Shown piece after piece: positions 20,293 through 45,320 of a DNA stretch of 64,000 bases. This DNA comes from an uncultured Neglectibacter sp. (GTDB lineage: Bacteria > Bacillota > Clostridia > Oscillospirales > Acutalibacteraceae). How positions within the stretch are numbered: the stretch's first letter is position 1; each line of letters begins with the position of its first letter. The DNA lies in NCBI GenBank assembly GCA_946554335.1, contig CAMNSA010000002.1:1-64000 (forward strand), read 5' to 3'. Below the pieces are notes generated by a model, which saw only the letters and a program-made list of their open reading frames with translations, was not told the origin of the DNA and made no database searches. A program made the translations under genes and the position numbers.

Positions 20293-20476
20293 CCTCGTCG
20301 CAGTGGTCTTTGTGGTTCGCCCTCGTCGTAGCTCGGTCTTGTGGCTTGGAGCACCGCAAGCGGCGCTCCGGTCGCCTGACGACCGGTTCCTCCTCTCAAA
20401 GAAAAATCTTGCGGTTTTTCTTTGGAAAGGGCGCGGGCAAAGCCCTCTCTAATATCTAATTTCTAAAATCTAATAC

Positions 20477-20561
20477 GGGAGAGTTCCCGAGTGGCCAAAG
20501 GGGACAGACTGTAAATCTGCTGGCTATGCCTTCGGTGGTTCGAATCCACCCTCTCCCACCA
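20477..20561 (+). tRNA. tRNA-Tyr (anticodon GTA)
   Basis: Acceptor GGGAGAG / CTCTCCC, anticodon loop CTGTAAA gives GTA (Tyr), long class II variable arm, T loop TTCGAAT, encoded CCA (20559-20561). This is the last clear host gene before the mobile element. Confidence 0.95.
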
Positions 20562-20570
20562 AACACGAGT

Positions 20571-20615
20571 AATCCGAATCCAACGCCGATTGGCGAGGGA
20601 TTCGGATTTCTTGTT
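20571..20615 (+). terminator. Terminator after tRNA-Tyr
   Basis: Stem AATCCGAATCC / GGATTCGGATT enclosing CGCCGATTGGCG, followed by TCTTGTTTC. Confidence 0.8.
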
Positions 20616-20676
20616 TCTATGTTTGAGTTTGAATCTATGATGGTATGACTCTGTTTCTATTACATATTGTATCTTG

Positions 20677-20715
20677 CCGCCTGAGTTTTGCTCAGGCGGC
20701 CTTTCTTTTTTCTGG
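20677..20715 (+). terminator. Strong intrinsic terminator at the left element border
   Basis: Stem GCCGCCTGAG / CTCAGGCGGC with a TTTTG loop and a TTTCTTTTTTC tail. A near-copy of this hairpin lies at 27631-27672 inside the element. Confidence 0.85.
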
Positions 20716-20826
20716 ATATAGCAATGCTTTCCTTTGAGTGTTCTTCTACCAAAACAACGGAGGAAATGAGTGCCTTTCCTTAATACTTGCTTGAAAAAGA
20801 GGTTGCTTTCATATAGGCAGAAGAGA

Positions 20827-20862
20827 ATAACCACCAGCGCCGATTTGACGCTGGTGGTTATG
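20827..20862 (-). terminator. Terminator of the minus-strand recombinase operon
   Basis: Stem ATAACCACCAGCG / CGCTGGTGGTTAT with a 10-base loop, 16 bases after the stop of the metallophosphoesterase gene, T-rich on the minus strand. Confidence 0.8.
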
Positions 20863-20877
20863 ACCATTCCCACAATT

Positions 20878-21621
20878 TCATAGCACTTGAACAATTTGCT
20901 CGTACAGAAGCGTGTAGTTCGTATAGAATCTCTTGTTGTCGTGGTAGTGACCAAACAGCCACTGGTCGAAAGAGGTGCGCTCTCTCACTTCGTCCAAGAA
21001 ATCTGTCAGATCATCTCTCTTATAATGTGGGTCTATCAACCCCTGGATTGATGTGGGGCAACAGTGAGAAATAACAAAATCAACGGAGAAGTTCATACTC
21101 TCCAGGTTCCGCCATGCCTCAGCATACTCGTCCTTGCTGGGGAGCTCCTCGCTCCACCAGGACACTCCCTTTACTCGGAACATTCCGTACATCATGCGGA
21201 GAGCTTGATAATCTTCCTTGAAGGTCGGTGACTTGGGATCGAGTATCCCGTCTTGAATGTCGTGGCTCCTCGCTCCTCCCATAGTAAAGAACCTGCGTCC
21301 CTCAATTTCATAGACCTGTCCTCTCATAAGGTGCAGGATATGGGGACGGACGATATGCACTCTGCCGCCTTTCCATGCCATTTCCGGGAGGGAATACAGC
21401 AATTCAAAGTTCTCATGGTTCCCGTCAACAAACAGGGTGGTAAAGGGCATATTCTCCAGCCAGTCCAATATCTTGCTTTCTTTCGACGAGCCTGACCAGA
21501 CGCCGCCAAAGTCGCCGCAGATCAAAACATAATCATCACGGGTTATTTCCTCAGCTTCAAAGAAATTTTCAGGTTTGAACCTGTCAAAATCCCCGTGTGT
21601 ATCTCCCGTTGCGAACAGCAT
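20878..21621 (-). CDS. Calcineurin-like metallophosphoesterase, ICE cargo/last gene of the recombinase operon
   Basis: 247 residues with the two-metal phosphoesterase motifs in order: GDTHGD (about 6-11), GDFGG (about 36-40), GNHE (about 67-70), SHCCP (about 188-192) and GHYHD (about 227-231). Such enzymes hydrolyse phosphomono- or diesters; nucleic acid, nucleotide or protein substrates are all possible. ATG 21621 is preceded by AAGGGGGCG; the frame is open to 21657. It lies 48 bases after the preceding gene and ends at a terminator, making it the eighth gene of the operon. Confidence 0.85.
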   Translation of the reverse strand: MLFATGDTHGDFDRFKPENFFEAEEITRDDYVLICGDFGGVWSGSSKESKILDWLENMPFTTLFVDGNHENFELLYSLPEMAWKGGRVHIVRPHILHLMRGQVYEIEGRRFFTMGGARSHDIQDGILDPKSPTFKEDYQALRMMYGMFRVKGVSWWSEELPSKDEYAEAWRNLESMNFSVDFVISHCCPTSIQGLIDPHYKRDDLTDFLDEVRERTSFDQWLFGHYHDNKRFYTNYTLLYEQIVQVL

Positions 21622-21669
21622 ATCATCGCCCCCTTGCTTCCAAGTATTGTAACACAACGCTGGACCTTA

Positions 21670-22336: not shown

Positions 22337-22690
22337 TTATAGCACCTTTAGCGGGAACACGACGGCGTTAAGGCGCTCATCATATTCTCCCGTTATCGCA
22401 TAGTTCTGTGTGGGGTCCATGTCATTCGCTTGGAACAGCTCATCGGTAAATTGCTTGCAGTAAATCCTCATTCTTCTATCTTTGTTTGTCCGCATTTCTG
22501 CCGGAACAGTTAATGCCAAAGGTTCTTCGGGTGCACAAGGTCCAATCGCCATGGTTTGCTTGTTTTCACTTTTCAAAAAACAGACGCACTTTGGCCAACC
22601 AAGAGCACTGATCACGGAACGGCTGATTCTGATTCCACATTGCGGCCCTATTAATGAAATGATTAGATTCCCGGAAATACGCTCTCCCAT
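22337..22690 (-). CDS. Stand-alone recombinase-associated domain protein (117 aa)
   Basis: By eye the whole protein aligns with the C-terminal domain of the adjacent serine recombinase and with the 22694-23446 product: an IISLIGPQCGIRIS start, a CVCFLK strand, the F..EL helix, then NYAITGEY and VVFPLKVL at the end. It has no catalytic recombinase domain. It follows its neighbour by three bases with a GGGGTGAAG ribosome site. Proposed role: accessory or directionality partner of the recombinase; this is inference. Confidence 0.6.
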   Translation of the reverse strand: MGERISGNLIISLIGPQCGIRISRSVISALGWPKCVCFLKSENKQTMAIGPCAPEEPLALTVPAEMRTNKDRRMRIYCKQFTDELFQANDMDPTQNYAITGEYDERLNAVVFPLKVL

Positions 22691-22693
22691 GCT

Positions 22694-23446
22694 TCACCCC
22701 TCATCTCTCGCAACATCTGGAGTAGATGGCTGTTCTCCCACTGAACCGGCTTCATCTTGCGGGATATTTCCAGGGGGAGTGCCGTTATCGTAGCTTACTA
22801 TATCTTCAAAGATGTTCAGCTGCCGTGACGCTTCATAATCGTTGTAGGACTTACCAATGCAATCCTTATACTGATCCGGGAAGTATTTGACCTGCCGTTT
22901 CTTGACTTCTCCGGTCTTGTGATCGACATACTCCTGCATATCAGGCGTGAACATGATGGCTTCTTCCAGATCGAACACCAGAATCAAGCCTCTGTCTGAG
23001 GTTGCCAGCCTGCCAAGGACCTTATAGCGGCACTCTCTATCCCAATTAAGAAAAAGAAACAGTTTCTCAATGAATTCAAGAGAGGTGATCGTCTTGTTTA
23101 CCCAGGTTTCACCGTTTTTGAGCCTTGCCCACTCGACGGACGAGCTTTCTTCCTCCTGGCATAAAGCAACTGCAAGCCTCTTTTTCTGCGTGTTTACCAG
23201 TGGCAAGATAAACTGAATCCCTTCAAACAGACGAATACACGCCATATTGAAAGTCATCTGACCGTATTTGATGGAAACCGCAGGCTTTTTCAGCATGGAA
23301 AACTGAGTTCGAGGTGGAAGTTCGTACCCCTCAAAGCTCTCATATTCCATGGGCTGGTTCTGCGCCTTTTTCGTCTGGATCAGCTCTTGGATCAGCGAAA
23401 TCTCTTTTTGAGCAAGCTTTTGTTCTTCAACACTCACCGTAGGCAT
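22694..23446 (-). CDS. Recombinase-associated domain protein (250 aa)
   Basis: Residues about 55-166 resemble the recombinase C-terminal domain (AVSIKYGQMTFN, a VEW segment, WDRECRYKVLGRL, LVFDLEEAI). An N-terminal helical segment (1-50) and an acidic, Pro/Gly-rich C-terminal tail (about 225-250) flank it; a VDHKTGEVKKRQVKYFPDQY segment (about 175-194) looks basic and exposed. It starts 14 bases after the recombinase gene with a GGGAG site. It is not an integrase itself. No database family is recognised. Confidence 0.6.
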   Translation of the reverse strand: MPTVSVEEQKLAQKEISLIQELIQTKKAQNQPMEYESFEGYELPPRTQFSMLKKPAVSIKYGQMTFNMACIRLFEGIQFILPLVNTQKKRLAVALCQEEESSSVEWARLKNGETWVNKTITSLEFIEKLFLFLNWDRECRYKVLGRLATSDRGLILVFDLEEAIMFTPDMQEYVDHKTGEVKKRQVKYFPDQYKDCIGKSYNDYEASRQLNIFEDIVSYDNGTPPGNIPQDEAGSVGEQPSTPDVARDEG

Positions 23447-23460
23447 TCAAATCACTCCCT

Positions 23461-25386
23461 TCACATTGCCTGGAGAAGCTGCTCCAGCTCAGTTTCGATT
23501 TCTTCTTGTGTAGGAACACTGCCAATCAAAGGATTTTCAATCGCAACTCCGTGATTCAGGACATCTTCTTCCTCAATCTCAGAAATGATACTATCCCGAT
23601 TCATGCGTACAACATAGGCCATGCCTGTAAGTTCTTCACTGATCTCACCCTGCACCATGCCGTTTTCAGAGGATTCGTGGCTTTTTGCTTCCGAACTCGC
23701 AGGCTTGGTTTTTGCAAGAACAACAGGCTCGTCCAAGGAAAAGACCAGGAAACTTGTGTTGCCCCGTTTTCTCAAAACTCCTCTGATTTTATAGTCCATG
23801 TCGCTGTTCCAGCGCTGGATCATATAGATACTCTCTGAGAAAGCTCTCGTGTAAAGCGTCTGTACTGGCTTCCCGTCTGCGTTGACCCAGCAAACACAGT
23901 TAGGAGATTTCTCATCACTGGCTCGTACAATCAGTGTTTGCAGGACAGGGTGATAAAGGACATCTACATATTTACAGGACTGGAGCCGGTCATGGCATAC
24001 CTTATTGAATTTTAGCCCCCTTGGAGTAACCGTGAGGGACGGGACAGTCCGATTAATAAAGTACGCACCCGACGGCACCTGATACCCGGATAGAGTCATG
24101 GAAAGAATATTGCTTTGTCCTTCCTCGCCGATCAACCTTACACGGTCAGAGAGCTTCTGGATTTCCTCGCTGGTGTAGACATCAAGACATACAGCCATAA
24201 GAGTTTCAGCGTCAATCCCTGCAAATCCGGGACACAAGCCAATGAACCCTTTCAAGCTTCCTTCCTGAATCACACACAAATCAAAAACGCCCTTTGCTAT
24301 CGACCGGCTGCTTGCGGCTACCAGCTTTGCAGCTTTCGCTATTGCCGGGGTCACGATTCCCTGATGGTGCCCTGGAACATAGGCGGAATCCCGCTGCCCA
24401 CGGTTTCTTGTGACAATTCCGTGCTTGTAGTCCACAACAATGGTTTTCCGTGCCTCCAGATCACCCCATGTTCGCTCATTTGACATGATACTTGCTACCA
24501 TTGAAGCCGTCCACCTGGTATTCCCTTTCAGTGTAGGACGCTTCTTTTCAGTCAGAATCTCAGCAATCTTCTCACGGGAATACCCAATCATGCTTGCCAG
24601 GAACATGAACCGAACTGTTTTTGCCTCCTCCGGCTCAATGATAAGATTACCGTCTTTCGTGTGTCGCAGCCCCAGAGAGTCCGACACGGGATACTGGCCT
24701 GTCAAAATCCGCTGGTCATAGGAAAGAATCATTCGGCGGCTCTTGTTTGCGGACTCCCAATCAGCAAGCATAGCGTGAATACTGAAGCTCTGGTCGCTGT
24801 CTGGGTCCAGCGTGTAGATGTTCTCCGTTTCAAAGTAAACGCCAATTGGCTTTTGCGGGTGCATGGTTTTTAGTTTTGCCACCTGATCCAGGCAATCTGA
24901 GATATTCCTTGCGAAGCGGGAAACGCTGGCACACAAAATCAAGTCCATTTTCTGTTCCTCTGCGTCAGCCATCATGCGTCGAAAAGCGTCCCGATGTTTG
25001 AGAGAAGTTCCCGATTTCCCCTCGTCGCTGTAAATCTCCTGCATTTCCCAATTAGGATTATCAGAGATCTTCTTCTCATAGTAGAGCGTCTGGTTTTCAA
25101 TAGAAGAAACCTGGCTCTCACTTGTAGTGCTGACACGGGCATAAACGGCAACCGTCTTTTTTCCTTCGTCCTGAATCGTAGGTTTTGGCTTCGCCGGCCT
25201 GAAATACTCGCTTTTTCCGGTAGACCCTCTGACTCTTTTCCTTATTTCCGACCTTGCGATTTCTCTTTCCTGGTGCCGTTTCACCCAGTCCTGCATGGAC
25301 GATCCCTGAGTTTCCTCGATGGTCTGGTCTTCTATCTGAGATTGCTTTTCTTCCAAAGGCGCAAGCTCCTGATCCTTGTAATCCAT
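23461..25386 (-). CDS. Large serine recombinase (site-specific integrase/excisionase of the element)
   Basis: 641 residues. An unusual N-terminal extension of about 76 residues precedes the resolvase domain (about 77-225): VYARVST with nucleophile Ser86, SRFARN (about 150-155). The Recombinase domain follows (about 240-340; LTEKKRPTLKGNTRW..MVASIMSNE). The usual zinc ribbon and coiled coil are not evident; instead residues about 450-556 form a domain shared with the two downstream genes. It would cut at attachment sites and exchange strands through a Ser-DNA link. AGCGAGGTC precedes ATG 25386. Central gene of the operon. Confidence 0.9.
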   Translation of the reverse strand: MDYKDQELAPLEEKQSQIEDQTIEETQGSSMQDWVKRHQEREIARSEIRKRVRGSTGKSEYFRPAKPKPTIQDEGKKTVAVYARVSTTSESQVSSIENQTLYYEKKISDNPNWEMQEIYSDEGKSGTSLKHRDAFRRMMADAEEQKMDLILCASVSRFARNISDCLDQVAKLKTMHPQKPIGVYFETENIYTLDPDSDQSFSIHAMLADWESANKSRRMILSYDQRILTGQYPVSDSLGLRHTKDGNLIIEPEEAKTVRFMFLASMIGYSREKIAEILTEKKRPTLKGNTRWTASMVASIMSNERTWGDLEARKTIVVDYKHGIVTRNRGQRDSAYVPGHHQGIVTPAIAKAAKLVAASSRSIAKGVFDLCVIQEGSLKGFIGLCPGFAGIDAETLMAVCLDVYTSEEIQKLSDRVRLIGEEGQSNILSMTLSGYQVPSGAYFINRTVPSLTVTPRGLKFNKVCHDRLQSCKYVDVLYHPVLQTLIVRASDEKSPNCVCWVNADGKPVQTLYTRAFSESIYMIQRWNSDMDYKIRGVLRKRGNTSFLVFSLDEPVVLAKTKPASSEAKSHESSENGMVQGEISEELTGMAYVVRMNRDSIISEIEEEDVLNHGVAIENPLIGSVPTQEEIETELEQLLQAM

Positions 25387-25904: not shown

Positions 25905-26885
25905 CTAAGGCTCCTCTTGATCGACGGTATCTTCTCCTGGCAAGGAAAGATACCAGACATTCCCTCGCTTCATCGGGACGACCCCTAACTCGTGCTGTGC
26001 GCTTCTTACGGTGCGTTCTGAGATATTGAGCCATTCCATGCGCCGGAATATCTCTTTACTCTCCACGGGACCGGCTGAAAGAATAATACGGAGCAGGTCT
26101 TTTGCCGTTTCTTTTTTGCTCTTGCTCCGGGCAACGATGACCTTTTCCTCGCTCGGCATGGAACACCGCCCAATCCAGTGAAATCCTGTTTCCTGGTCAA
26201 GAATGAAGCCCACAGGCGGTCCTTCCGGAGCAAGGCTCTGTTTCACCGTGACCATGTAGCGGATGTCCGGGTTTTCCTCATCACGCACGATCATCAATAC
26301 GCTCCTGGCAATGGCTGAAATATCTATACTGCCAAGACCACGATAGATAGACTTGCCGCCGCTAGACTTGTTCAAGTGCCCAATCAGGATCATGGCACAT
26401 CGGTACTTCTCCGCAACTGAGGACAGCCGGCGGAGAAGATTTCTCATGCGTGTTGCGCTTTGCATATCCCCGTCCTGGTGGATATAGGACTGAATAGGGT
26501 CGATAATGAGCAGCCGAGCCGAGGTTTCCTCTAACGCCTTTGAGATACGCTGGTCATCAAGGGTCAGCGAATCCTCGCTATCCAGAATAAAAGCCACCCT
26601 GTTACAGTCTGCTCCTGCTGAAATCAGGCGTGGCTTAATGGTGTCCTCATTGTTGTCCTCTGCACATTGATAGATCACGGTAGCCTTATTCTTGATAAGC
26701 GTTCCATCCGGCAACGGGCTTCCTCTTGTGAGAGCAGCCGCAAGATGGAGTGCAAATGTTGACTTTCCCTCGCCGGGGTCTCCTTGCAGCAGCGTCAGCT
26801 TACCATAAGGAATGTATGGATACCAAAGCCATTCTACGGGCTGTTCTCTCACAGCAGAGTAATACTGATAGATCGGTTCTGCCAT
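25905..26885 (-). CDS. RepA/RegA-like RecA-fold ATPase (replicative helicase-like)
   Basis: 326 residues of the AAA_25/RepA (RecA-like hexameric helicase) type. Walker A is GDPGEGKST (about residues 35-43), Walker B LLIIDP (about 124-129), and HLNK (about 167-170) is the sensor. The C-terminus (about 255-320) looks like a winged helix. Such proteins drive plasmid-like replication of excised elements or act as integration ATPases. AAGGAG precedes the ATG, 20 bases after the XRE gene. Next to it lies the iteron-bearing intergenic region. Confidence 0.82.
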   Translation of the reverse strand: MAEPIYQYYSAVREQPVEWLWYPYIPYGKLTLLQGDPGEGKSTFALHLAAALTRGSPLPDGTLIKNKATVIYQCAEDNNEDTIKPRLISAGADCNRVAFILDSEDSLTLDDQRISKALEETSARLLIIDPIQSYIHQDGDMQSATRMRNLLRRLSSVAEKYRCAMILIGHLNKSSGGKSIYRGLGSIDISAIARSVLMIVRDEENPDIRYMVTVKQSLAPEGPPVGFILDQETGFHWIGRCSMPSEEKVIVARSKSKKETAKDLLRIILSAGPVESKEIFRRMEWLNISERTVRSAQHELGVVPMKRGNVWYLSLPGEDTVDQEEP

Positions 26886-26904: not shown

Positions 26905-27213
26905 TCACTTATCTCTAAGCGAATTGTTCTTCTGCCGCAGGTTCTCTACAAGCTCTGCAACGATCTTGTGGTCCCGTGCAGTGAGCCCGGAAACATCCAG
27001 TATATCTCCCATTTTGCGACCAAGCAGATAGTCTGTTGAAACATGAAACACATCGGCAAGACGAACCAGAATCGAATATTCAGGCTGTCTTTGATCGTTT
27101 TCGTAGTTATGTATTGTTGATCTTGACACCCCAAGGAGCTTTCCAAGCTGCGACTGTTGGATATTTGCGGCACACCTCAACTTTTTGAGCCTATTTCCAA
27201 ATGTATCAGTCAT
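26905..27213 (-). CDS. XRE-family repressor, first gene of the recombinase operon
   Basis: 102 residues from ATG 27213. The helix-turn-helix spans about residues 8-60 (QSQLGKLLGVSRSTIHNYENDQRQPEYSIL), a Cro/C1-type domain; the C-terminal part is a short helix. A second in-frame ATG lies two codons earlier (27219), but AAAGGTG is too close to it and fits 27213 better. An inverted repeat overlaps the ribosome site (27214-27235), suggesting self-control of the eight-gene operon. Confidence 0.88.
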   Translation of the reverse strand: MTDTFGNRLKKLRCAANIQQSQLGKLLGVSRSTIHNYENDQRQPEYSILVRLADVFHVSTDYLLGRKMGDILDVSGLTARDHKIVAELVENLRQKNNSLRDK

Positions 27214-27235
27214 GTGCATTCACCTTTCTATGCAC
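27214..27235. promoter_or_regulatory. Inverted repeat, candidate operator of the XRE repressor
   Basis: GTGCAT (27214-27219) and ATGCAC (27230-27235) are perfect inverted copies around the repressor's ribosome site; a further TGCA-centred copy lies just upstream. Confidence 0.45.
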
Positions 27236-30079: not shown

Positions 30080-33000
30080 ATGAACAAAAAGTACAAGCAT
30101 GGCTGTCATCGCCTGATGACAATGCTCCTTGCGGTCATTACGGTCTTTTCTGCTTTCGGTGGGACCGCCTTTGCCGTTCAGGAATACAACTACCATGATC
30201 CTGCGGAGCACTGGCTCGAAGCATTGAATCGCACTAATGAATTTGACAGGAACGCTGTTGTTACCCGTGGAAACGGTACTTGCGCTGTCTGCGGTCATGC
30301 AACGACATTCATCACCTATCGGGTGCCGGAGTACACACGGGATGGCATCACTGCCGCAACCCGCAATGTCCGCTATTCAGATGGCACTCTGGTTGGTGGT
30401 GAGGGCACCGGTCTGCTGATGTCTGGTACTCCCGGAAAAGATTCCTTTTATACGGGTTACCACTGGACTAAGGCGTGCTGTAACACCTGCGGCACCATCA
30501 ACTCCAATATGGGTATTGGTGATTACTGCTTCGGAAAAAATGTCTACTATCTCTACGACTGCGCCCCGGAATTCTTTGAGGATCTGGACGAAACCGTGAC
30601 ATTTACCTCCGTCGATAGCGCCTATCACACGAAAACGACCAAGAGCGGCAGCTACTGCGGCTACTGCTACGGCACGAACCACAAGGACAGCGCTGTGCTG
30701 GAGCGCCACAATATGCAGACTGAGGTCATTCCGCAGATCAGCAACAACCGCTTCGCTATCGTCAAGCATTGCAAGGACTGTGAGTACACCAGCACCAGCT
30801 ATGTGGGAGCCAAGTCCGTTATCGCTGACTACTATGGCGTGGTAGACGGGAAGTCCCATACGATCACGATTTCTGATCTGTCCGAGGCTGGTGTGTCTAC
30901 CCAGATTCGATATGGTAATTCCGCTGAGTCCTGCACGCTGACGAGCGCTCCTAACTATACCGAAAAGGGACAGTATGCGGTCTATTATGAAATCACCTAC
31001 AGCTATTCCGGCATGACGATGACCGAAAACGGCGTTGCCAATGTCTGGCTGCACGATGAAAAGGAAGATACCGACTGTCCCTGCGGCTGCGGCGATCCCG
31101 ACTGCGACTGCAAAAATCCCGATTGCAACGGAAGTTGCCATAAGGGAAACTGCGTAGATAAGCACAATTTTGTTGTCCTTGAGCCGGTCAACCCCACCTG
31201 CAAGACCCTTGGTTATACCCGCTACCTTTGCGTAGACTGCGGAAAAGTTGAGAAGCGTGACTATGTGGACTCTCTGGACCATTCCTGGCAGACCATCGTG
31301 ATTCGTGAGGCCACCTGCGAGATGGGTGGCAAGACGCTGAAAGTCTGTAAGAACTGCGGCGAAGTTCAGGAGAATCTCACGCCCAAGGGAGAGCACAAGT
31401 ATGCAACCTACACGGTGGAACCTACCTGCGTCAATCCCGGCTACAAGGTCAAGGAGTGTGAGATTTGCGGTGACCGCCATATTACAGACATTCAGGCGGC
31501 AAAGCCCCATAACTATGAGGCTATCGTAACTCCCGCCAACTGTGAGAACGGCGGTTATACCCTGCATTTGTGCCAAGGCTGCGGCAGCTCCTTCACCACC
31601 GATTTCACTGATCCGCTGGGCCACAGCTTCGATGAGGGCACTGTTGTGACTTCTCCCTCCTGCACCGGCGAGGGTGTTACCGAGTTCCGCTGTGAGCGTT
31701 GTGGCTACCACTATATTGATGGGAATACCGCCGTGGGTCATAAGCCCGGCGACGCCGCTACCTGCACCAAGCCCCAGCTCTGTACCGTTTGCGGAGCAGT
31801 GATCCATCAGGCATTGGGCCACAGCTACAAGTCCGAGATCACCGCTCCCACCTGCACTGACATGGGCTTCACCACCTTTGTCTGCGAGCGCTGCGGCGAA
31901 ACCTATAAGAGCGACTATGTAAAGGCAAATGGTCATAAAGTCAGCGACTGGATCATCGACAAGGAACCTACCACCAGCAGCGAGGGCAGCAAGCACAAAG
32001 AGTGCGAGGTCTGCGGCGAAAAGCTGGAAACGGCAACTATTGAGAAGCTATATCTGACTGCCACCACAGACAGCAAGGGCGAAGCAGTTGTAGGTGGCTA
32101 TCTGGTAATCGTAACCGATACGGACACCACAGAGCCTGTGTCCGGGGCAAAGGTCATGCTGAATGAGGGCGGGGACATCTCCATTCGCCTTCCCAACAGC
32201 CGTATCCTCGACTACGCTGATCAGACCACCGTCACGGTAAAGCTCGTTAAGGACAACTCTCCCGTCAACGGCCTCTCTACTTCCGTGACCGACAAATTCT
32301 CCAACTACTCCGCTGGAATGACCAGCAAGAACGGTCAGTTGATTGTTCCCGGCAAAACCGAGAACAGCAACGATGATGGCAAGGCCACTATTGGCGGAAA
32401 GGACTCCGATGGCGACTGTTACACCATCACCGTGAAGGTGGAGGACTACGAAACAGGTCGCCCCATTGAGGACGCCGCCGTTTCGATTGGGAAGACCGGA
32501 ACCATCACCGTCAAGCTGCCCGAAGATGTCGACATGGACGAGAACAATCGAATCATCGTCACTGTCACGGACAACGAGCAGAACCCGCTGAAAGACAAGT
32601 CCATCGTCGTCAAAGGCGATCTGGGCCAGAACGCCTCCGGCAAGACCGATGAGGACGGCAGAATTGTCGTTCCCGCTGTTATCCGCACGATGAAGCATGG
32701 CGCTTATATCGTGGGTTATCCCGATGGCACCTTCGGTCCTGAAAAGGATATGACCCGCAGCGAGGCAGCAGCTATCTTTGCCCGGCTTTTGGCCGAAAGA
32801 AAGGGTGAAACCCTCCCGACGAGTGGAAAAACCCATTTCAAGGATATTCCCAATGGTGCCTGGTACAGCGGCGCTGTGCGCTACTTGACCGAGTATGGCG
32901 TGACCTTTGGAACCGGTGAAAACAACTTTGCACCTGATCGGAGTATTACCAGAGCCGAGTTCGTGACCATGGCGGTCCGCTTCTTCAATGTCTACGGCGA

Positions 33001-33340
33001 AGGCAATACAGAGATCATGGAGCAGTATGCCGAGTTTACCGATGTGCCCAACGGATATTGGGCGGCTGAGTATATCCGGGACGCTGCTATTCACGGCTGG
33101 ATTTACGGCTATGGCGATGGCACCTTCCGGGCTGAGTCCAAAACCACCCGTGCTGAGGTGGTCAGCATTGTCAACCGCCTGCTGGATCGCACCGCCGACA
33201 GTGCCTATATCGGCAAGAATATCAACAAGCTCAACTCTTTCCCCGATGTCAGCGAAAAGCATTGGGCGTACCTTGCGATTGTAGAGGCGGCGAACTCCCA
33301 CACTGCAACCTTTGACCCTGCGGAGATGTGGAGCAAGTAA
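30080..33340 (+). CDS. Large secreted CxxC-repeat surface protein with SLH domains
   Basis: 1086 residues. Signal peptide about 1-32. Residues about 330-345 form a dense Cys/Asp cluster (CPCGCGDPDCDC). About 360-650 carries at least seven repeats of roughly 40 residues (pattern PTCxxxGxTxxxCxxCG...GH), each with a CxxC pair suggesting a metal-stabilised knuckle. Two carboxypeptidase-regulatory/Ig-like modules follow (about 665-880). Three S-layer-homology domains (about 880-1080; AYIVGYPDGTFGP, GVTFGTGENNFAPDRSITRAEF, GWIYGYGDGTFRAESKTTRAE) attach it to the wall. Probably an adhesin or surface factor displayed by ICE-bearing cells. CAGGAGG precedes the ATG. Confidence 0.85.
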   Translation: MNKKYKHGCHRLMTMLLAVITVFSAFGGTAFAVQEYNYHDPAEHWLEALNRTNEFDRNAVVTRGNGTCAVCGHATTFITYRVPEYTRDGITAATRNVRYSDGTLVGGEGTGLLMSGTPGKDSFYTGYHWTKACCNTCGTINSNMGIGDYCFGKNVYYLYDCAPEFFEDLDETVTFTSVDSAYHTKTTKSGSYCGYCYGTNHKDSAVLERHNMQTEVIPQISNNRFAIVKHCKDCEYTSTSYVGAKSVIADYYGVVDGKSHTITISDLSEAGVSTQIRYGNSAESCTLTSAPNYTEKGQYAVYYEITYSYSGMTMTENGVANVWLHDEKEDTDCPCGCGDPDCDCKNPDCNGSCHKGNCVDKHNFVVLEPVNPTCKTLGYTRYLCVDCGKVEKRDYVDSLDHSWQTIVIREATCEMGGKTLKVCKNCGEVQENLTPKGEHKYATYTVEPTCVNPGYKVKECEICGDRHITDIQAAKPHNYEAIVTPANCENGGYTLHLCQGCGSSFTTDFTDPLGHSFDEGTVVTSPSCTGEGVTEFRCERCGYHYIDGNTAVGHKPGDAATCTKPQLCTVCGAVIHQALGHSYKSEITAPTCTDMGFTTFVCERCGETYKSDYVKANGHKVSDWIIDKEPTTSSEGSKHKECEVCGEKLETATIEKLYLTATTDSKGEAVVGGYLVIVTDTDTTEPVSGAKVMLNEGGDISIRLPNSRILDYADQTTVTVKLVKDNSPVNGLSTSVTDKFSNYSAGMTSKNGQLIVPGKTENSNDDGKATIGGKDSDGDCYTITVKVEDYETGRPIEDAAVSIGKTGTITVKLPEDVDMDENNRIIVTVTDNEQNPLKDKSIVVKGDLGQNASGKTDEDGRIVVPAVIRTMKHGAYIVGYPDGTFGPEKDMTRSEAAAIFARLLAERKGETLPTSGKTHFKDIPNGAWYSGAVRYLTEYGVTFGTGENNFAPDRSITRAEFVTMAVRFFNVYGEGNTEIMEQYAEFTDVPNGYWAAEYIRDAAIHGWIYGYGDGTFRAESKTTRAEVVSIVNRLLDRTADSAYIGKNINKLNSFPDVSEKHWAYLAIVEAANSHTATFDPAEMWSK

Positions 33341-36975: not shown

Positions 36976-36989
36976 GGAGGTTCGTGCCA

Positions 36990-39900
36990 ATGCCGAGTAA
37001 GTATCAATTCATATCGGAGCTGGCAGCACAGGAAGCCGCCTCGATTACCTCCGATGTGGGTAAGTACGAGGCATTTCTGACCACCGCTGCCAACAACTAC
37101 AAATACTCCTTCCGAGAACAGTTGCTCATTCACGCTCAGAAGCCCAATGCGACAGCCTGTGCCGAAATATCCCTCTGGAACAGGCTGGGCAGATGGGTCA
37201 ATCGTGGCACTAAAGGAATTGCCCTGCTGGTGGACGAGCCGAATCGGTATAAGCTACGCTATATCTTCGATATTTCCGATACCAACAGCCGGGACGGTCA
37301 CCAGGTTACGCTTTGGAAGCTCGAAAGCCGTTATGAGGACAGGGTTCTGGAATCTCTGGAAAACAGCTTCGGTGCTCTGGAAAACCATGCCGGCTTTGAT
37401 TCTAACCTGATTGCCATTACGCAGGAGCTGGTCGATGACAATATCTCCGACTACCTGGATATGCTGCTGCAAGTCAGGTCCGGCAGTCTGCTGGAGGACC
37501 TCGACGATATAAGCACAGAGGTCTGGTTCCGCAATTTGTTAAGGTCAAGCGTGGCGTTTATGACCCTGACCCGCTGCGGAAAGGACCCCAGCCTCTATCT
37601 GGACGCCATGGACTTTGCCCACCTGTACGAGTTTAGCACCCCGGAGGTGGCCTCCGTGCTGGGCACGGCGGCCAGCGATATTTCCGAACTGGCTTTGCGA
37701 ACTGTCGAAATCACAGTTCGGTCTATGGAGAAGGAAGAAAGAAAAGAAATTCGCACATTTGAATCTATGCCGGCAATGGGCGATAATAAGCGTACCAACA
37801 TTGAAAGGAGCGACACACATGGAACTGACTTACCATCAGGAGGGAGATTACCTTCTGCCAGACCTGATCCCGCCGGAGAGCCCGAAGATTGGGAAGTATG
37901 GAATGCTGCGGCAAAGCTACCTCAGACAGCACAAGTCCCCGATCTACACGGGAATGATGTTGTCCGGGAAGCTCAACAGCCATTTAGAGGAAGTGGATCG
38001 GCAGTCCAACGAGCTGATGGAGAGCCTGACCGCACAGATGGCGAGCCAAGAGGGCGTGACGGAGGAACTGAAAGCACAGGATCAGATGAAGTGGATCGGA
38101 CTGATGAACAACATCCGTCAGAGGGCGGAGGAAGTCGTGATGAGGGATCTGATTTATCGCTAAACGCTCAGGGAACAAAGTATGCTGTCGCCCCTGAATA
38201 CGGTCCTACCGGGCTCACGAACCTTCACCATGATTTTGACGCTCGAAGAAGCATTCCCTATTTTCACGAGGACAATGAGAAAAACGAGCTTCTCCGTACC
38301 TGCGACGCACTGAAAGACCATCGCATTGAAATCGCCACATTCTTTGAAACCCATACGGATGACAAAGAGCGTGGCGATTTTATTAAGTCCTTCTTTGATG
38401 ACACCTATGTTGAGAAGATTCTCAGCAACGAACAGAGAGCCGGGTATCACGCATGGGACGATGTGCTGGAATTGTGGCGTGGCTCCTACAACGGGCGTGA
38501 AAAGGAAGAATATCTGCGCTGGACAAGCGTAGCAGGCAGAATCGGAGGAATGATTCTGCTGGAACAGTGGCTTGACCCTGACGAGCGACCCCTTCCCAGC
38601 GAAAATGAACAGCTTTCATGGATAGACCGGGCCGAGGCTGAAAAAGCCCCGGCTTTTTTTATTCCCCAAGCAGCCATTGATTATGTCCTTTGCGGCGGTA
38701 GCGGAGTGTCGCAGGGAAAATTCCGAATCTATGAGCAGTTCCGAAAGGCAGAGTCCAAAAGTGAGAATATCCGTTTCTTGAAGCAGGAATACGGCATTGG
38801 CGGTCACTCTGACGCTATTCCCGGCAGCGGCTATTGGCTGGACCACGATGGAAAAGGGATCACCATTACAAGAAGCCGTGAAGGAAACTACGACAAGTTC
38901 ACGCTTTCCTGGGATAAGGTTGAACGCCGTATTGGGGAACTCATTTCCGCAGACCGATATTTGAACCGGGCTGAAACGGAGCAGTACCCTCAGTATATGG
39001 CGCAGGAAGAAGCACGGACAGAGCGCCAGAGGTTCGCCCTGGAAATTCGCTCTATCATCAGCGACTATGTAGACTTCAAGACCCAGCTTGGCGAGAAGGA
39101 CCAGACTCCCGATATGTCGCTTGCCTTGCGCTGTGCGGATAGCCTTGGTGCCGGTGAGAAAAAGTGCTATGTTCTCACATCGGAGGGGAGCTTTGTCCTC
39201 CCCACCATCAGGAATGCTTTGCGGGCTATCATTGACGATAAGACACATTTGACAGAACGCTGTGAAGCTGCTCTTGCCACACTCAGCGGTCCGCTCGCAA
39301 CTCCGCTGGAGCCGACAGGGGCGGAATTGAATCCACCGCCGCCTCCGAGGAAGGAATATCGCCTGTCCCTGGGAGATACCCTTTACCTGGGAGCAACGGA
39401 GTATGAACTGGCTGCATATGACGAGAACACCGTGCGCCTGTTTGAACCGGATTACCCACTGTTCACAAAGGAGATGACCCGTGACGACTTTGACCGGCAG
39501 CTGACAGAATCGCCGCTGAATGACCATCTTCTTCAAGAAGTTATAGAAAGCCCGGCCCCAGAGCCTGAAACGGAAGTTCACGAGCGCCCAATAGGGCGAA
39601 TCGACTACCTGGGCACAGACGGAACGGTTGGCGATAGCTCGGAGTTTACTAATGAGGATAAGTTCCTTGCGGCTATTCGTGATGATACCTACTCCGGTGT
39701 TCCCATGACCGTAGTGCTGTATCGGGACAAAGATGGTCAGACCATCCCGCAGGACTTCCTTGCGGAGCTTGACCCGCCTCCCAAGGGCTTTCAGGTCGTT
39801 GATGTCAATGAGGCAATGCTGACAAGGGCCCGGAATCTCATCAACGATTACACCATGAGTGAGTTTGACCAGGAGGCGGATTACTCTGACCTTCACCATG

Positions 39901-42900
39901 TAGACCTGGCCTTCTCCTCTACTGGTGATGGAGAGCACACCATCAGCGTATATGCTGACCTCGTTGATTCCCGGCTGCTCTATGAGGTGGACGGAGAGGT
40001 AGTTGTGAGGCTTCAATGCTATGATCTCGCCGATCTGAACCAATACCTCCAGAACATGGATTTTGACGAGATGATAGCGTATGCGGAGGAACAGTACGAA
40101 AAGCAGCGTGAAGAAAGCACCCAGGAAGCTGAGGGTGTTGCCTCCGATGAGCCGGTCACAAATTCCGCCGTCCAGCAGATCATGGATGAGGTGGACCGTG
40201 CCGCCGCCAACGAGGTTCCTCCCTATGAGCGCTTTTCCATCATTGAAATAGACAACGGCTACGCCATATGGGACGATATTCGGGGTGAGATCTACACTGA
40301 TAGCGAGGGCGTCCAGGAGGAGTTCTCCAGCGAGTGGCAGGCTGAGGACTATCTAATGCGGGTCCAAAAAGAAGTAGCGGACAAAGAAAGCGCCGAATGG
40401 CTCTATGTTGAACAGAGCAAACAAAAGGCTGAAAATGAACAGCCGGAAACGAACTTGGAGAATATTCTTCCCGCACCTGCCCCAAGACACAACGGCAAAG
40501 TGACTCCGGTGCTGCTCTACCCTGTAATCCCAGACGCTGAGAGACATGACTACCGTATTTCAGACGACGCCATTGGCGTAGGAACTCCGAGCCAGCGGTA
40601 TGAAAACAATGTCCGGGCAATCCGGCTTCTAAAGCAGATCGAAGCGGAATCACGCCTTGCCACTCCGGAGGAACAGGAGATTCTCGCTCAATATGTGGGC
40701 TGGGGCGGTTTGGCGGACTGCTTTGACGAGCGCCACAGCCGGTATAACGAGTTAAAGACTCTCCTGAGTGAAGATGAGTATGAGGCGGCAAGAGAATCCG
40801 CATTGACTGCCTTCTATACGCCGCCCACCGTGATACGGGCCATGTACCAGGTGCTGGAGAAGGCGGGCTTCCAGGAAGGAAACATTTTGGAGCCTTCCTG
40901 CGGTATCGGCAATTTCTTTGGCATGAAGCCGGAAAGCCTGTCAGAGTCCAAAATCTACGGTGTGGAACTGGATTCCCTCAGCGGACGGATTGCCCAACAG
41001 CTCTACCAGAAATCCTCCATCGCCGTTCAGGGCTATGAAAAGGTTGACCTGCCGGACAGCTTCTTCGATGTGGCCATCGGCAACATTCCCTTTGGCAACT
41101 ATAAGCTGAACGACAAGAGATACGACAAGAACAACTTTCTGATCCACGACTACTTCCTGGCGAAGACCCTGGATAAAGTGCGTCCGGGTGGTATTATCGC
41201 ATTCATTACCTCCAAGGGAACGATGGATAAGGAAAACCCTGCTGTGCGTAGGTATCTGGCGCAAAGGGCTGACCTTCTGGGCGCAATCCGTTTGCCCAAC
41301 AACACCTTCAAGGACGCAGCTGGCACAGAAGTGACCAGCGACATTCTGTTCTTCCAGAAACGGGACACCCTCGCCATCAATGAGCCAGATTGGGTCCACC
41401 TTGGCACGGACGCTAACGGGCTGAAAATGAATCAGTATTTCATCGACAATCCTGATATGGTGATGGGCGAAATGCGAGAGGTCAGCGGTCCATTCGGGCC
41501 AGAAACCGCCTGCGTTCCTTATGAGGGCCAGGAGCTGGAAGAACTGCTGAATGAGGCGGTGCAGAACATCAACGGCTCCATAACGGAGTACGAGTTCGAT
41601 GAGGTTGTGGAGGACGAGGTGGATAAATCCATTCCTGCCGACCCTTCTGTACGCAATTTCAGCTACACGGTGTTAGACGGTCAAATCTACTACCGTGAAA
41701 ACAGCCGCATGAATCCCGTCGATGTTTCTCTGACGGGAGCCAACAGGATCAAGGGTCTGATTGAAATCCGGGATTGTGTCCGGCAGCTCATAGAGTACCA
41801 GACCGAGGATTATCCCGAAGAAGACATCAAAGGCGAGCAGAAAAGGTTGAATGAGCTCTATGACAAGTTCGTGAAGAAATACGGGCGAATCAATACAAGA
41901 GCGAATAAGTCCGTGTTCCTATCAGACAACGCCTACTTTCTGCTTTCTTCCCTGGAGGTTCTGGACGGCAAGGGCAATTTCAAAGAAAAAGCTGCAGTGT
42001 TCTACAAGCGCACCATTAAGCAGCGAATTGAGATCACCCATGTAGATACCGCAACTGAGGCTCTGGCGGTGTCACTGTCTGAAAAGGCAAAGGTGGATAT
42101 GCCCTATATGATGGGGCTTACCGGCAAAACCGAGCAGGAGATTTTCTCCGACCTGAAGGGCGTGATCTTCCTTAATCCCATGTATGGTTACGGAAACTAC
42201 AGTGAGGAACAGTATCTTCCGGCAGATGAATACCTTTCGGGCAATGTGAGGCGGAAGCTGGAGTGGGCAAGGAGATCCGCCAGGCTGTACCCCGAAGACT
42301 ACGCCGCCAACGTGGAAGCGCTGGAACGGGTCCAGCCCGTAGACCTGACCGCAGCTGAAATCTCCGTCCGAATCGGCGCAACATGGATTTCAGCGGAAGA
42401 CTATGCTGATTTCATGTACGACCTGTTTGGAACGCCCCACTACAACAGAAGCAACATCAATATCCACTACGCCAAGCATACCGGAGAGTGGAACATCGAA
42501 GGTAAAAGCTACGACCGTGGCAACATCAAGGTAAACAGCGTCTATGGTACGAACCGTATCAATGCCTACAAGATTTTGGAACAGACCCTGAATCTCCGGG
42601 AAGTCAAGGTGTTTGACTATATTGAAGATGAAAACAGAAGAAAGGTCGCAGTTCTGAATCGCAAGGAAACGACTATCGCCCAGAGCAAACAGGAGCTTAT
42701 CAAGCAGGCATTTGAGGACTGGATATGGAAGGACCCGGACCGGCGTGAACGGTTAACAAAATACTACAATGAAAAGTTCAATAGTATCCGCCCAAGAGAG
42801 TATGACGGGAGCCACCTCAATCTGATCGGGATCAATCCGGAAATCGTCCTGAAGCCGCACCAGCTCAACGGCGTTGCGAGAGGTCTATATGGGAAGAATG

Positions 42901-45320
42901 TGCTGCTGGGACATGTCGTGGGGGCTGGCAAGACCTTCACAATGGTCGCTCTGGCGCAGGAGGCTAAACGCCTGGGCCTTTGTCACAAGAGCTTGATCGT
43001 CGTTCCGAATCATATTACGGATCAGTGGGCAAGCGAATATCTCCAGCTCTATCCCAGCGCCAATATTCTGGTGGCGACGGCAAAGGACTTTGAGGCACAA
43101 AACCGCAAGAGGCTGTGCAGCCGGATCGCCACCGGGGACTACGACGCTATCATCATCGGACACAGCCAGTTGGAAAAGATTCCCCTGTCCGTTGAACGGC
43201 AGCAGGAATACCTCCGGCAGGAGCTGCAAGAGATCATGGACGGCATAGCGGAAATCAAGGCAAACAGAGGCGACCGGTTCTCGGTAAAGCAGATGGAGCG
43301 GTCCAAAAAGCAGGTCTTGGCCAAACTGGAACGGCTGCATGACCAGAGTCGCAAGGACGATGTGGTCACCTTTGAGGAGCTGGGCGTGGATAAGCTGTTC
43401 ATCGACGAAGCGCATTATTTCAAGAACCTCGCCGCATTCACGAAAATGCGGAATGTGGCGGGAATCAGTCAGACCGAAGCGCAGAAGTCCAGCGACCTGT
43501 TCCTAAAGTGCCGTTACCTGGATGAGATCACCGGAGGGCACGGTATCGTCTTCGCCACCGGGACACCAATCTCCAATACCATGATTGAAATGTACACCAT
43601 GCAGAAATACCTGCAATACAACACCCTGCTCGAAAATGATCTGCTCCACTTCGACGCATGGGCCTCGACCTTTGGTGAAACCGTTACCGCCATCGAGCTG
43701 GCTCCGGAGGGTACAGGGTATCGGACGAAAAGACGGTTCAGCAAATTCTTTAACCTCCCGGAACTGATTGCCATGTTCAAAGAGGTCGCTGATATTCAAA
43801 CCTTCGATATGCTGAATCTCCCTGTTCCAAAGGCAAACTATCATACCGTGGTGCTAAAGCCTTCGGTAATCCAGCTTCAAATGGTTTCCGACCTCGCAGT
43901 ACGGGCCGAGAAAATACGGAGCGGTATGGTGAAGTCCTATGAGGACAATATGCTTGTCATCACAAACGATGGCCGCAAGCTGGCGCTGGATCAGCGGCTG
44001 ATAAACCCACTCCTTCCTGACAGCGGAACGGGAAAAGTTGCTGCCTGCGCCAAAAATGTCTTTGAAATATGGGAACTGACCGCAGAGCAGCGCTCGACGC
44101 AGATGGTTTTCTGCGACCTTTCCACGCCCCACAACGATGGAGAGTTCAATGTCTATGACGATTTGCGGGACAAGCTGAAAGCCATGGGCATACCGGCTGA
44201 AGAAATAGCCTATATCCATGAGGCAAAGACTGAAACCCAAAAGAGGGACCTATTTGCCAAGGTCAAAGTTGGAGAGGTTCGTGTGCTCATCGGTTCTACG
44301 CAGAAAATGGGGGCAGGAACCAATGTTCAGCAGAAGCTCGTTGCGCTCCACCACCTGGATTGTCCCTGGCGTCCGGCTGATTTACAGCAGCGGGAGGGTC
44401 GTATTATCCGTCAGGGCAACGAGAACCCGGAGGTGGAGATCTTCACCTATGTGACCGAAAACACCTTTGACGCATATCTCTATCAGCTTGTGGAATCCAA
44501 GCAGAAGTTCATCGGTCAGATCATGACCTCAAAATCTCCGGTCCGTTCAGCAGAAGACATTGACGAAACCGCCCTGTCCTATGCGGAGATCAAAGCCTTG
44601 TGTTCGGGCAACCCAGAAATCAAGGAGAAGATGGACTTGGATGTGGAGGTTCAGAAGCTGAAACTACTGAAAGCGAACCATCTCAGTCAGCGGTACGCCT
44701 TGGAAGACCAGGTCACCAAGTATCTGCCGCAAAAGATAGCAGCTCTTAAAGAGCGCATAGAAGGGTTCACCGCCGACATGAACCGAGTGAAAGAGAACAC
44801 TCACCCAAATGAGGACGGCTTCTCCCCGATGGAGGTGGACGGCACCGTCTACACCGACAAGAAGGCGGCTGGCAGTGCGATCCTCGCTGCCTGTAAAGCC
44901 ATGACCAGTCCGGAAGCCGTAAACATTGGGCATTACCGTGGCTTTGCCATGGAACTGACCTTTGAGAGCTTTTCCAAAGAGTATCAGGTGACGCTCAAAG
45001 GAATGCTCCGCCATACCGCAAGTCTGGGCACAGACATTTACGGTAATATCGTGCGGCTTGACAATCTGCTGGGCGGCTTGGAGGAAAGAATGATCGTCTG
45101 CCGGGAGGAGCTCGAAAATGTCAAAGTCCAGTTAGAAAACGCCAAGCAGGAGGTGGAAAAGCCCTTCCCCAAGGAAGACGAGCTGCAAACGAAGCAAGCC
45201 CGGCTCAACGAGCTGAACATCTCTCTGAACCTCGACAAGAAGGAAAACGAATTTGCCGATGGGGACAGAGATGATTCCGACGAGGAACCAACCCGTAAGG
45301 AAAAATCTCTGGAGCGATGA
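36990..45320 (+). CDS. Giant ArdC-like / N6-adenine methylase / SNF2 helicase fusion
   Basis: 2776 residues from ATG 36990 (ten bases after GGAGG; GTG 36984 is too close). N-terminus (about 1-100) is ArdC/LtrC-like antirestriction. A hydrophilic linker (about 265-395) overlaps tnpV. Central methylase: LEPSCGIGNFF (about 1300, SAM motif I) and IGNIPFGNY (about 1362, the NPPY-like catalytic motif). C-terminal SNF2-type helicase: GHVVGAGKTF (about 1973, Walker A), FIDEAH (about 2136, motif II), REGRIIRQGNEN (about 2466, motif VI), then a coiled-coil tail. It likely modifies or protects incoming single strands. Typical of Tn1549-like elements. Confidence 0.85.
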   Translation: MPSKYQFISELAAQEAASITSDVGKYEAFLTTAANNYKYSFREQLLIHAQKPNATACAEISLWNRLGRWVNRGTKGIALLVDEPNRYKLRYIFDISDTNSRDGHQVTLWKLESRYEDRVLESLENSFGALENHAGFDSNLIAITQELVDDNISDYLDMLLQVRSGSLLEDLDDISTEVWFRNLLRSSVAFMTLTRCGKDPSLYLDAMDFAHLYEFSTPEVASVLGTAASDISELALRTVEITVRSMEKEERKEIRTFESMPAMGDNKRTNIERSDTHGTDLPSGGRLPSARPDPAGEPEDWEVWNAAAKLPQTAQVPDLHGNDVVREAQQPFRGSGSAVQRADGEPDRTDGEPRGRDGGTESTGSDEVDRTDEQHPSEGGGSRDEGSDLSLNAQGTKYAVAPEYGPTGLTNLHHDFDARRSIPYFHEDNEKNELLRTCDALKDHRIEIATFFETHTDDKERGDFIKSFFDDTYVEKILSNEQRAGYHAWDDVLELWRGSYNGREKEEYLRWTSVAGRIGGMILLEQWLDPDERPLPSENEQLSWIDRAEAEKAPAFFIPQAAIDYVLCGGSGVSQGKFRIYEQFRKAESKSENIRFLKQEYGIGGHSDAIPGSGYWLDHDGKGITITRSREGNYDKFTLSWDKVERRIGELISADRYLNRAETEQYPQYMAQEEARTERQRFALEIRSIISDYVDFKTQLGEKDQTPDMSLALRCADSLGAGEKKCYVLTSEGSFVLPTIRNALRAIIDDKTHLTERCEAALATLSGPLATPLEPTGAELNPPPPPRKEYRLSLGDTLYLGATEYELAAYDENTVRLFEPDYPLFTKEMTRDDFDRQLTESPLNDHLLQEVIESPAPEPETEVHERPIGRIDYLGTDGTVGDSSEFTNEDKFLAAIRDDTYSGVPMTVVLYRDKDGQTIPQDFLAELDPPPKGFQVVDVNEAMLTRARNLINDYTMSEFDQEADYSDLHHVDLAFSSTGDGEHTISVYADLVDSRLLYEVDGEVVVRLQCYDLADLNQYLQNMDFDEMIAYAEEQYEKQREESTQEAEGVASDEPVTNSAVQQIMDEVDRAAANEVPPYERFSIIEIDNGYAIWDDIRGEIYTDSEGVQEEFSSEWQAEDYLMRVQKEVADKESAEWLYVEQSKQKAENEQPETNLENILPAPAPRHNGKVTPVLLYPVIPDAERHDYRISDDAIGVGTPSQRYENNVRAIRLLKQIEAESRLATPEEQEILAQYVGWGGLADCFDERHSRYNELKTLLSEDEYEAARESALTAFYTPPTVIRAMYQVLEKAGFQEGNILEPSCGIGNFFGMKPESLSESKIYGVELDSLSGRIAQQLYQKSSIAVQGYEKVDLPDSFFDVAIGNIPFGNYKLNDKRYDKNNFLIHDYFLAKTLDKVRPGGIIAFITSKGTMDKENPAVRRYLAQRADLLGAIRLPNNTFKDAAGTEVTSDILFFQKRDTLAINEPDWVHLGTDANGLKMNQYFIDNPDMVMGEMREVSGPFGPETACVPYEGQELEELLNEAVQNINGSITEYEFDEVVEDEVDKSIPADPSVRNFSYTVLDGQIYYRENSRMNPVDVSLTGANRIKGLIEIRDCVRQLIEYQTEDYPEEDIKGEQKRLNELYDKFVKKYGRINTRANKSVFLSDNAYFLLSSLEVLDGKGNFKEKAAVFYKRTIKQRIEITHVDTATEALAVSLSEKAKVDMPYMMGLTGKTEQEIFSDLKGVIFLNPMYGYGNYSEEQYLPADEYLSGNVRRKLEWARRSARLYPEDYAANVEALERVQPVDLTAAEISVRIGATWISAEDYADFMYDLFGTPHYNRSNINIHYAKHTGEWNIEGKSYDRGNIKVNSVYGTNRINAYKILEQTLNLREVKVFDYIEDENRRKVAVLNRKETTIAQSKQELIKQAFEDWIWKDPDRRERLTKYYNEKFNSIRPREYDGSHLNLIGINPEIVLKPHQLNGVARGLYGKNVLLGHVVGAGKTFTMVALAQEAKRLGLCHKSLIVVPNHITDQWASEYLQLYPSANILVATAKDFEAQNRKRLCSRIATGDYDAIIIGHSQLEKIPLSVERQQEYLRQELQEIMDGIAEIKANRGDRFSVKQMERSKKQVLAKLERLHDQSRKDDVVTFEELGVDKLFIDEAHYFKNLAAFTKMRNVAGISQTEAQKSSDLFLKCRYLDEITGGHGIVFATGTPISNTMIEMYTMQKYLQYNTLLENDLLHFDAWASTFGETVTAIELAPEGTGYRTKRRFSKFFNLPELIAMFKEVADIQTFDMLNLPVPKANYHTVVLKPSVIQLQMVSDLAVRAEKIRSGMVKSYEDNMLVITNDGRKLALDQRLINPLLPDSGTGKVAACAKNVFEIWELTAEQRSTQMVFCDLSTPHNDGEFNVYDDLRDKLKAMGIPAEEIAYIHEAKTETQKRDLFAKVKVGEVRVLIGSTQKMGAGTNVQQKLVALHHLDCPWRPADLQQREGRIIRQGNENPEVEIFTYVTENTFDAYLYQLVESKQKFIGQIMTSKSPVRSAEDIDETALSYAEIKALCSGNPEIKEKMDLDVEVQKLKLLKANHLSQRYALEDQVTKYLPQKIAALKERIEGFTADMNRVKENTHPNEDGFSPMEVDGTVYTDKKAAGSAILAACKAMTSPEAVNIGHYRGFAMELTFESFSKEYQVTLKGMLRHTASLGTDIYGNIVRLDNLLGGLEERMIVCREELENVKVQLENAKQEVEKPFPKEDELQTKQARLNELNISLNLDKKENEFADGDRDDSDEEPTRKEKSLER
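37819..38163 (+). CDS. tnpV: TnpV-like protein encoded inside the giant gene in the +1 frame
   Basis: 114 residues starting MELTYHQEGDYLLPDLIPP and containing LSGKLNSHLEEVD, QGVTEELKAQDQMKWIGLMNNIRQRAEEVVMRDLIY, which match the TnpV family of Tn4451-type elements. ATG 37819 follows AAAGGAG at eight bases, so the start looks genuine. The gene lies wholly within 36990-45320, read one base out of phase with it, so the DNA codes for two proteins. TnpV has no settled function. Confidence 0.8.
   Translation: MELTYHQEGDYLLPDLIPPESPKIGKYGMLRQSYLRQHKSPIYTGMMLSGKLNSHLEEVDRQSNELMESLTAQMASQEGVTEELKAQDQMKWIGLMNNIRQRAEEVVMRDLIYR

Follow-up and report, generated by a model that had tools for sequence, protein, structure and literature searches.

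A serine recombinase domain shared with two free neighbouring proteins in a putative multi-subunit recombination module of Clostridia mobile elements and phages

What does a large serine recombinase do with a C-terminal domain that is also encoded, as free-standing proteins, by the two genes that follow it? The question is raised by a locus in an uncultured Neglectibacter sp. (Acutalibacteraceae, Clostridia), within positions 1 to 64,000 of contig CAMNSA010000002.1 (assembly GCA_946554335.1), the 64,000-nucleotide (nt) stretch called the window here. A first-pass annotation made from the sequence alone had proposed that the recombinase (P1) and its two companions (P2 and P3) share a domain of about 110 residues, a new accessory domain that mediates synapsis or direction and has been duplicated into free subunits of one recombination complex. 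All three open reading frames (ORFs) that it called are confirmed and are organized as follows:

23461..25386, reverse strand: P1, a large serine recombinase of 641 amino acids (aa) matching PF00239 and PF07508, with a helical N-terminal extension, a catalytic domain, a recombinase domain and the shared domain near the C-terminus; a zinc ribbon is absent.
24700..25158, reverse strand: catalytic domain and long helix of P1, residues about 77-229.
24328..24633, reverse strand: recombinase domain of P1 (PF07508).
23716..24039, reverse strand: P1 copy of the shared domain, residues about 450-557, from profile matches and the strands and helices of the P1 model.
22694..23446, reverse strand: P2, a stand-alone protein of 250 aa, related to P1 by BLASTP and profiles.
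22949..23287, reverse strand: P2 copy of the shared domain, residues about 54-166, from BLASTP, motif register and profiles.
22337..22690, reverse strand: P3, 117 aa, essentially the shared domain alone.

The motifs quoted for a common domain are present in register in all three ORFs, and P1 (residues 431-574) is related to P2 (residues 37-180) by BLASTP (E 8e-11). P3 has no BLASTP match to P2 and its best alignment with P1 (E 0.054) is out of register; because BLASTP is blind to P3, family alignments and profiles were built. With profiles of 14 P2, 12 P1 and 7 P3 sequences, hhalign E-values, which are those of single comparisons throughout, are 9.3e-14 for P2 with P3, 1.7e-13 for P1 with P3 and 8.9e-37 for P1 with P2. 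Larger profiles (64 of 97 non-redundant P2 sequences, 75 of 114 P3 sequences, and 57 C-termini from 74 aligned P1 proteins) give 2.1e-18 for P2 with P3, 2.6e-20 for the P1 C-terminal domain with P3 and 4.7e-52 for the P1 C-terminal domain with P2, with scores of 116, 122 and 333 against maxima of 24.7, 14.9 and 18.1, respectively, in 30 column shuffles each. Removing the window rows leaves the two P3 comparisons nearly unchanged (2.6e-18 with P2 and 2.7e-20 with the P1 C-terminal domain), and window P3 alone matches the window-free profiles of P2 (1.8e-5) and of the P1 C-terminal domain (3e-5). The profile comparison that the first-pass annotation had put forward as a check thus matches every pair of P1, P2 and P3 segments significantly.

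AlphaFold2 models made separately for P3 and P1 (predicted local distance difference test [pLDDT] 89.2 and 82.3, respectively) share the same helix, strand or coil state at 96 of 114 sequence-aligned residues, and when the P3 states are slid ungapped over all of P1, the best of 525 offsets falls at P1 residue 439 (83 of 117 states; mean, 39). Small beta-rich proteins might resemble one another by chance, as the failure of BLASTP to detect P3 would allow, but this is extremely improbable and is ruled out by profile scores that exceed the shuffled maxima about 5- to 18-fold together with separate models that agree in register. The domain is covered by no Pfam, NCBIfam or PHROGs model, with sub-cut-off chance rows only (at E ≤ 1 in the window proteins, DXP_redisom_C at 0.18 in P1 and FRP at 0.039 in P3). 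Among sequences of solved structures, the P2 profile finds none at E ≤ 10 and the best match of P3 is CusF (0.2); an internal repeat inside the domain is not supported by profiles. Single-protein scans of the viral_contigs set with P2 or P1 return no relatives, whereas alignment queries found them.

In ordinary large serine recombinases, a zinc ribbon and coiled coil govern the choice of sites to be paired and the direction of the reaction. By its sequence, P1 is a serine recombinase with an intact catalytic core: PF00239 matches residues 79-226 (E 2.2e-24) and PF07508 residues 252-353 (E 7e-12), and both are present in all 74 P1 proteins scanned, taken from 90 that are non-redundant. The catalytic Y82/R84/S86 are kept in 73 of 74 aligned relatives (the other has a gap), and R132, S156, R157 and R160 in all 74. 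The remark in the first-pass annotation that the recombinase lacks an obvious zinc ribbon extends to the family, as PF13408 matches 0 of 74 P1 proteins at E ≤ 0.01 but all 7 ordinary recombinases tested, of which six come from relatives' loci and one from the far end of the window's element. An XisF model matches P1 residues 82-224 only (E 3.5e-4), and the VIA-align matches listed for P1 cover about residues 75-363 and not the C-terminal domain. Ribbon loss alone is not new, since ten integrases without a zinc ribbon are counted in the part of PMC4701971 consulted, and the ribbon is therefore usual rather than strictly defining.

Relatives were gathered from 14 of 148 related genomes (the source genome included), 19 phage records and one plasmid record, with 80 of 266 confirmed stretches kept from genome_contigs, 80 of 128 from viral_contigs, and 80 of 102 when the P1 C-terminus was the bait in viral_contigs. 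A survey of homologue neighbourhoods, also suggested by the first-pass annotation, finds that almost every relative examined keeps the trio as an operon. With the P1 bait, P2 and P3 lie downstream in all 64 P1 genes with 2 kb of downstream sequence (10 more loci are too near a contig end), although the contigs are redundant and the 64 P1 form 41 clusters at 80% and 17 at 60%. Two of nine checked loci had been matched in P2, so the recount was limited to P1 carrying the bait motif, and P2 and P3 are downstream in 61 of 61 testable cases (51 distinct P1). With the P2 bait, both P1 and P3 are within set distances in 124 of 132 loci (15 more are too near a contig end). The gap between P1 and P2, taken to the first possible start, differs from zero by no more than 60 nt in 189 of 207 cases, and a second middle copy, P2b, is present in 53 and absent in 82 loci with one P1 and P3.

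Many of the relatives' records are from gut or rumen samples, by title, and the two phage records that were examined, out of the 19, are both filed under Ca. Heliusvirales; the words recombinase, integrase and invertase are absent from the main text of the Heliusviridae paper (PMC9226167). An evenly drawn survey of Clostridia gives any match in 13 of 391 genomes, with an open P1-type frame in 6 by row reading, the weak matches having been partly read (G378, G262, G301 and G347). One of these genomes, G378, codes for a 619-aa protein (L368:2475-4334) whose C-terminus weakly matches the shared-domain profile; it has no recombinase match, and the resemblance may be chance.

Domains at the different gene positions form largely separate lineages. 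A tree built after dereplication at 60%, with at most 40 domains for each position (P1, 40 of 59; P3, 40 of 85; P2, 15; P2b, 34) and labels assigned by score, places P3 in its own group (40 of 40; support, 1.0), P1 as 40 of 40 plus 6 others (0.938), P2b as 27 of 34 (1.0), and P2 as 12 of 15 plus 2 others (0.977). After six rows were dropped and two relabelled, changes with which gene order agrees (for example, fragments ahead of the P2 gene), the rebuilt tree has 40 of 40 P1, 27 of 27 P2b, 40 of 40 P3 and 14 of 16 P2 domains on their own side of a branch. The cleaning is not independent of the tree, because the misplaced rows showed up in the first one; the P3 grouping is identical in both. 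From these groupings, the domain duplications look older than the spread of the families.

A fourth protein, P0, which was absent from the first-pass finding, is encoded directly upstream of P1:

25412..25960, reverse strand: P0, 182 aa, a resolvase-like domain lacking both the catalytic serine and the SRFAR arginines.

P0 looks like a resolvase domain stripped of its active site and is kept in only part of the family. It is related to P1 (BLASTP E 2e-7) and matches PF00239 below the cut-off (E 0.0087); in P0 and 13 distinct aligned relatives, the catalytic serine is missing and at least one of the two SRFAR arginines is changed. Beside 200 P1 genes that have at least 800 nt of upstream sequence, 25 upstream ORFs match the P0 profile, comprising 19 short P0-like ORFs (13 of them distinct, and none carrying the YxRVS motif), one 254-aa recombinase piece and five 523-aa recombinases; one more P0-like ORF adjoins P1 in genome G403. 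P0 abuts or overlaps P1 in part of the family.

The P3 model provides a lead to an MraZ/AbrB-like fold, MraZ being a tandem AbrB-like DNA-binding protein. Foldseek finds nothing for P3 in the PDB at E ≤ 0.001, and neither MraZ (PF02381) nor SpoVT-AbrB (PF04014) is among the matches of 75 P3 proteins at E ≤ 0.05. By hhalign, P3 with MraZ gives E 0.09, equalled by 1 of 20 shuffles, and the best E of P3 with the AbrB profile is 5e-4, which is suggestive for P3 only, as the P1 and P2 halves do not outscore shuffles when compared with AbrB or MraZ. The pooled domain gives E 0.022 with AbrB (0 of 30 shuffles as high) and 0.051 with MraZ (2 of 30), which is not proof. The shared domain differs from MraZ in having no sequence-profile match, a modest Z and a location in recombinase operons. 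A P3-like fold is also seen in BFVD entries G8GDL7, A0A2H5BNB3 and A6MAH0 (E 2e-4 to 1e-3), all uncharacterised proteins, from Salmonella phage PhiSH19, Klebsiella phage Menlow and Lactococcus phage KSY1 (Gp105). The families differ in charge, with a median net charge of +5 for P3, in which residue 21 is basic in 95%, and -5 for P2.

The module lies in an integrative conjugative element, as indicated by genes for a relaxase, VirD4, PrgI, VirB4 and a CHAP protein, and two candidate module neighbours are encoded upstream:

25905..26885, reverse strand: AAA_25 ATPase (PF13481, 8.3e-30).
26905..27219, reverse strand: HTH_3-type (helix-turn-helix) regulator (PF01381, 2.5e-16).

Downstream of the trio are genes for a 221-aa protein and a metallophosphatase, and ParA and ParB genes lie beside the module on the opposite strand. 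A calcineurin-type phosphoesterase is encoded downstream of the trio at 20878-21657, and an ORF that looks similar by eye (L033:13414-14163) is downstream in OY725878, the closest plasmid relative. The left end of the element is probably just after tRNA-Tyr (20477-20561); tRNA-Thr and tRNA-Tyr after the left-flank gene are kept in two of the nine relatives' stretches read, a comparison in which no empty site and no long repeat was found. At the other end of the element, beyond the window, is a canonical 512-aa serine recombinase with a zinc ribbon (contig 82875-84413; G000:C2; L198:994-2532), just preceded by a 187-aa ORF (82019-82582) that looks MazF-like by eye. Many relatives' loci (L031, L087 and L117) have two further canonical recombinases a few kilobases from P1-P2-P3, giving three recombinase genes per element. 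The element also codes for a 2,778-aa protein with N6-methylase and SNF2-type helicase domains (36984-45320) and for NYN-domain, actin-like and S-layer-homology proteins (45456-46841; 49457-50371; 30080-33340).

Judged on these sequence comparisons, we consider it somewhat more likely than not that P1, P2 and P3, joined here by P0, belong as subunits to a single site-specific recombination machine found in Clostridia mobile elements and phages. It would probably work as an assembly of several parts and not as one protein, because P1 lacks the zinc part and carries a different domain, of which free copies are encoded alongside. The first-pass interpretation is thus borne out in part: a library-unknown domain common to the recombinase and two free proteins, a kept operon and separate lineages per position together fit subunits of one complex, whereas for the proposed role in synapsis or direction, the MraZ/AbrB-like fold lead would point as readily to accessory-DNA binding or autoregulation. 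P1 would bind and cut the core of the attachment (att) site through its recombinase domain, and its C-terminal domain would dock P2 and P3, which share its fold, to form a hetero-assembly around the att sites. The basic P3 and acidic P2 families suggest that P3, the most basic, may contact flanking DNA and that P2, acidic on average, may act as a bridge. The assembly could take over the job of the zinc ribbon and coiled coil in the choice of site pairing and direction, with P0 pairing with P1 as a non-cutting subunit in the P0-bearing subclade. A more specific version, offered tentatively, is an obligate hetero-oligomer of active P1, inactive P0 (in one subclade) and two or three MraZ-like subunits (P2, P2b and P3), which with the P1 tail would form a ring-shaped or arc-shaped structure at the att sites, replacing the zinc ribbon and coiled coil and deciding synapsis and direction.

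Several observations weigh against a single P1-P2-P3 machine. P3 is undetected in 5 of 132 P2-bait loci (P1-P2-P2b), stop-to-stop frames included, and P2 is about 800 nt away in 3 of 132, which are near-identical. A short P0-like ORF is missing beside most P1 genes (present in 19 of 200), window P2 and the plasmid P2 fall outside the P2 group in the rebuilt tree, the P1 shared domain is near neutral (median, +1), and window P3 has a net charge of only +1 and shows only part of the basic pattern. No att sites were found, in that 20440-20960 and 82000-90500 have no exact repeat longer than 12 nt in common. Among loci with long flanks, 11 of 33 with three genes and 16 of 24 with four have other recombinases near P1, and the canonical zinc-ribbon recombinase at the other end of the element means that P1-P3 may not be its integrase. 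The module could then be a recombination system for multimer resolution or DNA inversion, with integration of the element left to the canonical recombinase, a possibility we rate at rather less than even. The adjoining ParA and ParB genes are in keeping with such a role, as are the two further recombinases that follow in 26 of the 57 three-gene loci whose downstream sequence reaches at least 6 kb, but 22 of 33 long-flank three-gene loci (and 8 of 24 four-gene loci) have no other recombinase inside the flanks, further out not having been searched.

The resemblance of P2 and P3 to the P1 tail in profiles would also suit a recombination directionality factor, and small proteins encoded beside a serine integrase can be such factors; either or both could act on P1 in excision only, through like-with-like contact. 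We consider this unlikely, as the zinc domain that is bound by the phiC31 factor, according to the title of PMC5814800, is absent from P1 by profile, and a single factor would hardly seem to need two or three separate conserved copies. Less likely again is that P2 and P3 are MraZ/AbrB-like regulators of the recombinase operon from which the recombinase captured a domain secondarily for DNA binding; the fold lead would accommodate this, but the MraZ and AbrB comparisons of the P3 proteins and of the P1 and P2 halves described above argue against it, and an HTH regulator is already encoded upstream.

The usual view of serine integrases is of recombinases made up of a single protein, with direction set via the zinc-domain coiled coil and one helper. 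The P1 family differs from the large serine recombinases of phiC31, Bxb1 and SPbeta in having the ribbon in 0 of 74 members and another C-terminal domain in its place, and its operon differs in that it also encodes the domain as two or three free paralogues. The cyanobacterial XisF-XisH-XisI system would be alike in that a large serine recombinase needs two further proteins. Streptococcal integrative conjugative elements carry serine-integrase triplets, related genes side by side that cluster by position in the set, as described in the part of PMC4701971 consulted, and the present operon likewise has several adjoining related genes that cluster by position in mobile elements. By that partial description, all three triplet genes are recombinases, whereas here the extra genes code for free copies of the domain and for an inactive protein of resolvase type; rather than three adjacent complete serine-integrase genes, the window has P1 alone complete and a 182-aa inactive P0. 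By title and abstract, the arrangement is not described in the literature searched, which left most subscription papers and preprints outside and is no proof of absence.

A lineage of Clostridia and phage recombinases that lacks the zinc part and has two or three free copies of the domain in its stead would show a different control of strand exchange. The finding supplies a defined domain family to characterise and a multi-subunit recombinase that can be tested.
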